DNA of 64,000 nucleotides, from contig NZ_NJER01000001.1 in NCBI RefSeq assembly GCF_002753895.1, forward strand, positions 868,001 to 932,000, written 5' to 3'. This document shows, one piece after another, positions 39,242-42,441 of the stretch. A model generated the notes under the pieces. It was not told where the DNA came from and did no database searches. It saw only the letters and a program-made list of their open reading frames with translations. How positions within the stretch are numbered: the first letter of the stretch is position 1; each line of letters starts with the position of its first letter. The stretch is from Halobacteriovorax sp. JY17. Lineage in GTDB: Bacteria; Bdellovibrionota; Bacteriovoracia; Bacteriovoracales; Bacteriovoracaceae. The position numbers were made by a program, and so were the translations under genes.

Positions 39242-39685
39242 TTAATTTTTAAAAGGAGAATCCACTCTCTTTAGTTGACCGTTAATTTCTTTAAGGGACT
39301 CTTCTAGAAGCTTAATTCTCTTATCAGTGTCTTCTTGGTATTTGACGAATTTATCAATGAGCTTCTCAACTTTTTCTTGATCTACAAATTCAATATCTTT
39401 CTTAAGTTGTGCGAGCTCAGTCGTCCTTAAACCTTCAACTTCTTTTTTGAGCTGCTCCTGACTCTTTGTTAACTCATCTATGAGCTTTAAAAGCTTCTTT
39501 GGATCTTCCGACTTCTTAAGCTCGGCCTGCAATGCTTTTACAGTACTATCCATTTTCACCATATAGGTCTCGATGGAAGTGATTCTTTCTAACTTATTTA
39601 GACCTGAATTTTCCTTAACTTCAAATTCTTGCGAAAAAGACAAGTGCGTCCACAAAAGGAGCAGGTAAAGTGTAGTTATTTTCAA
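39242..39685 (-). CDS. small secreted coiled-coil protein
   Basis: The 147-residue product has a signal peptide (MKITTLYLLLLWTHLSFS) and a mature domain that is almost wholly coiled coil (heptads from ~res 45 to 140, rich in Leu, Glu, Lys). The start is TTG at 39685, with AGGAAG about 5 nt upstream. It lies 9 nt after the interrupted secreted gene and ends 1 nt from the convergent C45 gene. Periplasmic coiled coils of this size include Skp- or Lpp-like linkers, but I see no specific family signature. Confidence 0.75.
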   Translation of the reverse strand: MKITTLYLLLLWTHLSFSQEFEVKENSGLNKLERITSIETYMVKMDSTVKALQAELKKSEDPKKLLKLIDELTKSQEQLKKEVEGLRTTELAQLKKDIEFVDQEKVEKLIDKFVKYQEDTDKRIKLLEESLKEINGQLKRVDSPFKN

Positions 39686-39694
39686 AGTTTCTTC

Positions 39695-40246
39695 CTAATC
39701 CAACTCAAAAGGTAACTCAATCCCTCTAGAGAATATTTCTTCAGTAGCTATATCATCATAACAATCAATTTTTTCTAAGACAAATCTCCCCGACTCTAAG
39801 AAGGTCTTTCCCTGAAAGTCGATATTCTTAAAAGCTATCACTTCGTAGGTATTCCCCTCAATGTGCCGAACACTAAATTGATTGGTTAACTTCAATATCT
39901 TATCTGGAGAAAAACGGTAACGAACATAGCCTCTAAAATTATTTCGGAGGTACTCGTCTACTCTTGTCGTCGTTCCATCATCAACGTAAATATCTTGATA
40001 GTGATAGCTCTTTAGTCCTTTATATAAAACCGCCGAATGAACTAAGAACTCTTCCTCTTCTGCAGAGATAAAAAAGAGTGGGTTCTCATTTAAATTTATT
40101 ACAGAGTAATTATCCTGACGATTTTCAAGGTAAGTGTCGTTATAGGAAATTGTTTAATAACATCCACGAATATCCACCCAATTTATTGCCAGGCAATTAA
40201 GACTAAAACTAAGAACTAGAACTCCCTTTAAAAGTAACCATTTCAT
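39695..40246 (-). pseudogene. secreted protein gene interrupted by an in-frame TAA at codon 31
   Basis: From ATG 40246, preceded by GGGGGAG, the frame encodes a clear signal peptide (MKWLLLKGVLVLSFSLNCLA) and INWVDIRGCY. It then hits TAA at 40156-40154, yet continues in the same frame for 152 sense codons to TAG at 39695. The post-stop part has no ATG, GTG or TTG until a TTG at codon 118, so it cannot be a separate normal gene. The readable remainder is a plausible beta-rich domain (NDTYLENRQDNYSV..., YRFSPDKIL, VLEKIDCYDD). This is either a recent nonsense mutation, a sequencing error or stop-codon readthrough. It sits in a chain of three minus-strand genes with ~10-nt spacings. Confidence 0.75.
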
Positions 40247-40256
40247 ATATCTCCCC

Positions 40257-40469
40257 CTAGGTGAGAATATTCAATTTCTTCTTTGAATTCTTAGAGAGAT
40301 CATCTTTATAGAGATGATCCTCCTCTTTTTCTAGAAGATGGTCTTTTTGAAGGTTCTCCTTCGCTGTATTCAGATCACTAGCAGATGCTGAAAGCTCAAG
40401 AGGTTCGTCGTCAGGAAAACTCACGGGAGGATGATCTAATGGGAATAGAATCTTCACATTTAAGGCCAT
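40257..40469 (-). CDS. small acidic protein, possible gene
   Basis: The 70-residue ORF has a short hydrophobic start (MALNVKILFPL) and a charged Asp/Lys/Glu/Leu-rich body (LEKEEDHLYKDD). Its stop is immediately followed by the ribosome-binding site of the interrupted secreted gene, 10 nt from that start, which favours a real operon member. A TATAAT-like stretch lies just upstream of the ATG. Not recognised; moderate support only. Confidence 0.45.
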   Translation of the reverse strand: MALNVKILFPLDHPPVSFPDDEPLELSASASDLNTAKENLQKDHLLEKEEDHLYKDDLSKNSKKKLNILT

Positions 40470-40537: not shown

Positions 40538-42145
40538 TTACTTTAGATTAGAGAGATTAAGTAGCGGATCGCCCTGAAGGTGATACCACACAAAATTTTC
40601 CAGTGCGGCCTCTCTATCATCAAGATTTTCAAGTAGATAGCTCTGCCCTTCAAAAACAACGTCAACTAGGCGCCTCTGATTATTCTCACTTACCGCCCTA
40701 TTTATCCCAATGGCCATAATAGCAGGAGGGTCCCAACTTATATCCACACTCCCGCCGTAATAAGCAACAGCTCCAGAGTTCGCCTCTCCACCACGAATGA
40801 AAGTTTCCCCCATTCGTCCTTCATTACTAAAGCGACCATTCTGGCAGGCTACATCAATAACTACTGGTTTTACTTTTCCAGAAGAAATACTCGCAATATC
40901 TCGCGTGTTAAATTCTCGTCCATAGACAGAAGGCCATTCAAAACCTGTTCCATGACCGATGTAATTTAGCCAAATACTTCCTTGATTAAATTGCGCCACG
41001 ATATTATCAGCATTACCACTTTCATTGGCCTGAAAGAATTCATTACTCTTCCAATTAAATTTCTCAGTCAGCGGGCTTTGCATATCACGGACATATTCAA
41101 CATCATCGGGAGCACTTCCTTCATCGGAAGCGATAGCAATCATCTCACTGGCCCCTGTAGAATTCTCCCAACTTCTATTTTCAAATTCAATTGTTTTCTC
41201 GATTACTCTTTCGAGTTCTTGGGTAGTTTCAACTGATAGTCTTCCATAGAGAACATCAGGAATAACATCTCCCTCACCATCCATTGTGTAATACAACATA
41301 TCTGATGGAGTACTCATATCAAATTGAGTTCTTACATACTCTGTTGGAAATTCTTCTTCATGACCTATGATAAGAGCGTAGGAAAAAGCTTCTTTCTCAT
41401 ATAGAGAATGAATAAATTCCTTTATCCCAATTGAGTCGTGTCCAATGTTTTCTAGTGCAAAGAAATTGACATTAAAGCCTTGCTCTTTTCTAAGTTTAAT
41501 TAAAGGAGATAAAGTACTTTCAAAACGGCTATGGGCAAAGATATTATAATTCTTATCATTCGCCTTCATCTTAAAAAAGTGAGGAGTACTCTTTTTAGAT
41601 TTTATATGAACTGTGCCCTCACTTACAAAGCGCGCGCCTTTAGTGTGGTTATAGGCGATAGGATAGACACTTACCTTGGTAATTTTCTTTCCTTTAAAAA
41701 CACCAATCAACTCTTTCTTAATGTGGAGAAGGTTTTCTCTATTGTAATACTCATCTTTGTAATCTGCAGAAAACTTCCAAGGAACGATATCACAGCGACA
41801 CGGTTTCTTTTGAGCAGGAGCCGGTACAAGCTCATCTATGAACGAAACGTCTTTGGCATCTAGAGTAACTTCAAAGTCCTGAGGGTCTCCTTCAAAGAGA
41901 AAGGACTTAAAAGGAAGAGATGCTGCTCCAACAGTTTTTGACTGCTGCCAATTCTCTAAGCTTATATCTTTAAATAAGAAAGGAGTTTCAAGATTCGAAT
42001 CAACTATACTTAAGTTGGAAGCTGTAAGTTTCCACGAGAGTTGAATTTCTTTCTTATCGTCTAGAATTGTCTTTTGAATCTCAGAACTAGCAGAGCTCAC
42101 TCCCGTCATAAAAATGGCCAAAAGAATCAAAGCTGATTTATACAT
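40538..42145 (-). CDS. secreted C25 (gingipain-like) cysteine protease
   Basis: The 535-residue product has a signal peptide (MYKSALILLAIFMTGVSSAS). After an N-terminal prodomain-like region, it carries the caspase-like C25 peptidase domain: catalytic His398 in NYIGHGTGFEW and Cys434 in VIDVACQNGRF, with IPDVLYGRLSV upstream and SGAVAYYGGSVD after. Gingipains are extracellular Arg/Lys-specific proteases; specificity here is unknown. ATG 42145 follows AAGGA at 7 nt; an upstream extension to 42247 is rejected. It has no type IX secretion C-terminal domain that I can see. A predatory bacterium could use it to degrade prey protein (inference). Confidence 0.88.
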   Translation of the reverse strand: MYKSALILLAIFMTGVSSASSEIQKTILDDKKEIQLSWKLTASNLSIVDSNLETPFLFKDISLENWQQSKTVGAASLPFKSFLFEGDPQDFEVTLDAKDVSFIDELVPAPAQKKPCRCDIVPWKFSADYKDEYYNRENLLHIKKELIGVFKGKKITKVSVYPIAYNHTKGARFVSEGTVHIKSKKSTPHFFKMKANDKNYNIFAHSRFESTLSPLIKLRKEQGFNVNFFALENIGHDSIGIKEFIHSLYEKEAFSYALIIGHEEEFPTEYVRTQFDMSTPSDMLYYTMDGEGDVIPDVLYGRLSVETTQELERVIEKTIEFENRSWENSTGASEMIAIASDEGSAPDDVEYVRDMQSPLTEKFNWKSNEFFQANESGNADNIVAQFNQGSIWLNYIGHGTGFEWPSVYGREFNTRDIASISSGKVKPVVIDVACQNGRFSNEGRMGETFIRGGEANSGAVAYYGGSVDISWDPPAIMAIGINRAVSENNQRRLVDVVFEGQSYLLENLDDREAALENFVWYHLQGDPLLNLSNLK

Positions 42146-42441
42146 CGATAGTTCCTTGAAAATATTTCTATATTCTCCGTAACGGAACAGTGGAAATTTC
42201 GAGTAAGTAAAACGATAAGAAAACACAAAAAGGGAAGAAACTTCCAAAGTTTTTCACAAGTCTCTGAACGCACAGCGTCTTATTAGGTTAAATTTACAGA
42301 AAATATTACAGTTTCTTAAATTTCTAAGCTTTTTTAGGAAAACCTAACTGACATTATCAAACTTTCCATGATAAATAGGCCTAACGAAAAAATTTATAAC
42401 TTATTGAATTGTTTTATATTTATCAATCTAGGAGACAACAC
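42146..42441. other. 296-bp divergent intergenic region
   Basis: This stretch separates the C25 protease gene from the phn operon and should hold both promoters. I see an AT-rich sequence with a small TTAGG-AAAA-CCTAA inverted repeat (42334-42347), but no convincing -35/-10 pair or riboswitch. Confidence 0.5.

Follow-up and report, generated by a model that had tools for sequence, protein, structure and literature searches.

A premature TAA just past the signal peptide of a small secreted-protein gene in Halobacteriovorax sp. JY17, probably a recent nonsense mutation

Bacterial pseudogenes that owe their loss to a single nonsense codon share a simple set of features: one premature stop, a remaining frame that is intact, and relatives in which the gene is whole and syntenic. 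The gene we describe here, from the predatory bacterium Halobacteriovorax sp. JY17, resembles them in each of these respects and departs from them in no notable way, being an apparently very young case with a single lesion. Within the same bacterial group, a degraded integrase pseudogene split by frameshifts has been described in Halobacteriovorax marinus BE01 (PMC5760749). Like our gene it is broken and was recognised via an intact relative, but it is split by frameshifts and is more decayed, whereas the lesion here is one stop codon (PMC5760749). A likeness can also be drawn to stop-codon readthrough and recoding, for example in UAG/UGA genes, in which an in-frame stop is followed by an open, once-coding continuation. 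The present stop differs from those in that it is a TAA, is not conserved in relatives, has no folded element and is accompanied by no matching tRNA among the tRNA genes found.

The interrupted gene and its neighbours

The window we analysed is a stretch of 64,000 nucleotides (contig NZ_NJER01000001.1, positions 868,001 to 932,000), and all positions below are those of the window unless a contig is named. On the minus strand, from 40246 to 39695, translation runs from an ATG through 30 codons to a TAA at codon 31 (40156-40154), and then through 152 sense codons to a TAG. The first 30 codons encode MKWLLLKGVLVLSFSLNCLAINWVDIRGCY, a clear signal peptide, and the sequence preceding the start, CCTAGGGGGAGATAT-ATG, reads as a good Shine-Dalgarno region with the ribosome-binding site GGGGGAG. 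Past the TAA there is neither a second stop nor a frameshift, and the earliest in-frame ATG, GTG or TTG is the TTG of codon 118 (39895-39893), from which a frame of 66 codons extends. On translation, the sequence-only reading proved accurate in all that it had described: the ribosome-binding site, the signal peptide, the TAA at codon 31, the 152 sense codons and the start at codon 118. The features of the locus are as follows.

40257-40469, minus strand: upstream gene of 70 residues, a conserved neighbour
40247-40260, minus strand: ribosome-binding region AGGGGGAG, 5' of the ATG, as read from the sequence
40154-40246, minus strand: 30 codons, covering the signal peptide and the first residues of the mature protein, and the premature TAA, at which orthologues have CAA, CAA, TTC and TCA
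39695-40153, minus strand: 152 sense codons and TAG, the remainder of the same gene and normally the mature secreted protein, with 76, 72, 60 and 39% identity to intact syntenic orthologues
39242-39685, minus strand: downstream gene for a secreted, coiled-coil-like protein, with a TTG start about 10 bases past the TAG, conserved and intact

The order and orientation of the neighbouring genes are the same in all four same-genus relatives, and comprise a Mg-transporter-like gene (unseen in the stretches taken from two of the four), a phosphatase-like gene, two genes of unknown function, the coiled-coil-like gene, the interrupted gene, the 70-residue gene, a C25 peptidase gene and phosphonate-transporter-like genes, these names being readings of the sequence except for that of the C25 peptidase. 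The C25 peptidase gene, which is gingipain-like and spans 40538-42247, lies upstream, and its order with the interrupted gene is conserved in 4/4 relatives, hinting that the two may be functionally linked.

Orthologues and the codon at the stop

We compared the locus with four genomes of the same genus, one of which is a MAG, Bacteriovoracaceae bacterium UBA3083. The post-stop part has exactly one match in each, and every match lies within an unbroken frame of 184 codons. That the two sides of the stop belong to one gene, as the sequence-only reading had proposed, is thereby firmly supported, and with 39-76% identity to intact orthologues the post-stop frame is no product of chance. A profile built from the four intact orthologues and the JY17 post-stop part matches across the TAA of the interrupted gene with '1 TAA' inside the alignment, at an E-value (3.7e-95) that is inflated by the presence of the gene's own sequence in the profile. 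When 291 genomes of the phylum were searched with this profile, five further distant homologues were recovered, one per genome. The gene is single-copy in JY17, as is its orthologue in each of the four same-genus genomes; a second copy able to replace it was sought in the JY17 genome and not found, and a search of plasmids gave no match.

What do relatives have in place of the stop? In the same-genus orthologues the codon is CAA, CAA, TTC or TCA, with CAA (Gln) in the two nearest and a Phe or Ser codon in the others, and in the four of the five distant homologues that are readable at the motif, GCY is followed by a sense codon (AAA, AAA, CAA and CGA, for Lys, Gln or Arg). A sense codon is therefore present in 8/8 homologues read and the TAA is not conserved. 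The sequence-only reading had named the codon of close relatives as a point to be checked; it is sense in all of them, and the reading of the gene as a simple pseudogene stands as the likely one. Because the relatives' codon is sense, the TAA appears to be a derived change specific to the JY17 lineage, and because CAA is found in the two nearest relatives, the history would most simply be one C-to-T transition, from CAA to TAA.

The protein itself has no assigned family in Pfam or NCBIfam. A search of solved structures returned just two matches, both weak (E 0.31 and 0.56), and the structure predicted from two sequences had a mean pLDDT of 31.5, too low to be of use. It belongs to a family of small secreted proteins, sparsely distributed in Bdellovibrionota, that carry the motif GCY.T directly after the signal peptide. 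This GCY-motif family, likewise unmatched in Pfam and NCBIfam, is small, and the JY17 lineage may manage without it.

Selection and the age of the lesion

Fitted to the post-stop region in five sequences, a codon model gave an omega near 0.03 on the JY17 branch, compared with 0.17 elsewhere, and rejected an omega of 1 on that branch by about 30 log-likelihood units, values that are rough because synonymous sites are saturated and the length of the JY17 branch is at its upper bound. A parsimony count points weakly in the opposite direction, with 8 amino-acid changes on the JY17 branch vs 3 on that of the nearest relative, and silent changes of 16 and 17, respectively. What can safely be concluded is that purifying selection acted along almost the whole of the JY17 branch, although this selection is not datable relative to the origin of the stop. 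At 0.5 substitutions per codon, unconstrained sequence would have a chance of less than 1% of showing no second stop. These results leave three possibilities for the stop, which is either recent or spurious or read through. If it is real, the lesion would be young, because the post-stop region has been under purifying selection and carries neither a second stop nor a frameshift. At the C-terminal end (39695-39700, minus strand) the gene is one codon short of its orthologues, lacking a Leu that 4/4 of them keep, which hints at relaxed constraint but is perhaps neutral.

Explanations for the stop

Which of these possibilities best accounts for the locus? We consider it probable that an ordinary and recent nonsense mutation has truncated a small secreted protein just past its signal peptide, leaving a very young pseudogene. 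Most simply, a C-to-T change would have turned the Gln codon CAA into TAA and left of a single-copy secreted-protein gene no more than its signal peptide. Translation would end at codon 30, the resulting fragment would presumably be degraded, and the post-stop part would be made just as often as UAA is misread at background level. The remainder would still look functional for want of time for further decay. The stop, the relatives' sense codons, the conserved gene order, the single copy and the lack of another convincing internal stop nearby are direct observations; the reality of the base, the loss of the product and the tolerance of that loss are inferences. The absence of a second lesion is also expected of a sequencing error or of a gene that is still translated. 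The main rival, which we regard as unlikely, is a substitution error in sequencing or assembly, in which case the true base gives a sense codon within an undamaged gene, and the lack of decay in the post-stop frame would suit such an error. It is made less likely by the clean appearance of the assembly (5 contigs, 100% complete) and by the small share of random substitutions that create stops, just 6.3% of neutral point changes in the post-stop stretch. Moreover, the difference is a single substitution and not a homopolymer indel, and across about 89 orthologues over 124 kb, compared between JY17 and two relatives, no frameshift was seen in the JY17 sequence and the only convincing internal stop was the TAA of the interrupted gene. 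Other apparent stops in this 124-kb scan were judged by eye to be artefacts, namely extended start sites, ORFs taken on a wrong strand or in a wrong frame, and shifted C-terminal ends.

Genuine readthrough of the TAA, whether programmed or by a suppressor tRNA, would supply the cell with useful amounts of full-length protein and would fit both the open frame and the purifying selection past the stop, but we hold it to be very improbable. Were the stop a conserved and functional readthrough site, the relatives should share it, yet all of them have a sense codon. TAA is also the main terminator, ending 69/99 ORFs (about 70%), and RF1 and RF2 are both present in the genome. No tRNA with a UUA anticodon, and thus no suppressor, is among the tRNA genes found (a list that may have gaps, since the Ile GAT tRNA is missing from it too), and with one interrupted gene in about 89 there is no sign of stop-codon reassignment or of a UAA suppressor. 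Nor did we find a stimulating RNA structure around the stop, folding over 181 bases being ordinary relative to shuffles (z +0.93), and the 21-base context of the stop occurs once in the genome. A variant of slightly lower probability still is that a near-cognate Gln tRNA misreads the TAA often enough to maintain a small but useful supply of the secreted protein, the stop serving as a down-tuning switch in the JY17 lineage. As for the post-stop part being made as a separate protein, the TTG-initiated frame at codon 118 could be cited in its favour, but we reject internal initiation as scarcely credible: the first 86 codons past the stop, up to codon 118, are devoid of the usual start codons, and the product would have no signal peptide, which the intact orthologues carry. 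Taken together, the decoding and assembly checks weigh against a poor assembly and against any readthrough of a general or programmed kind, but do not prove the base. Among the three options that the sequence-only reading had offered, a fresh nonsense mutation is the favoured one, a sequencing error is the less likely alternative, and TAA readthrough gained no positive support.

A recent nonsense mutation of this sort is an ordinary finding and has little importance beyond annotation, where the fitting label is that of an interrupted gene and not of a recoded one. A separate observation made among the tRNA genes is that a Lys-Glu tRNA pair is present twice in the JY17 genome, on contig C2 at about 603277 and about 607307, the two copies lying some 4 kb apart, scoring equally and resembling a local duplication.
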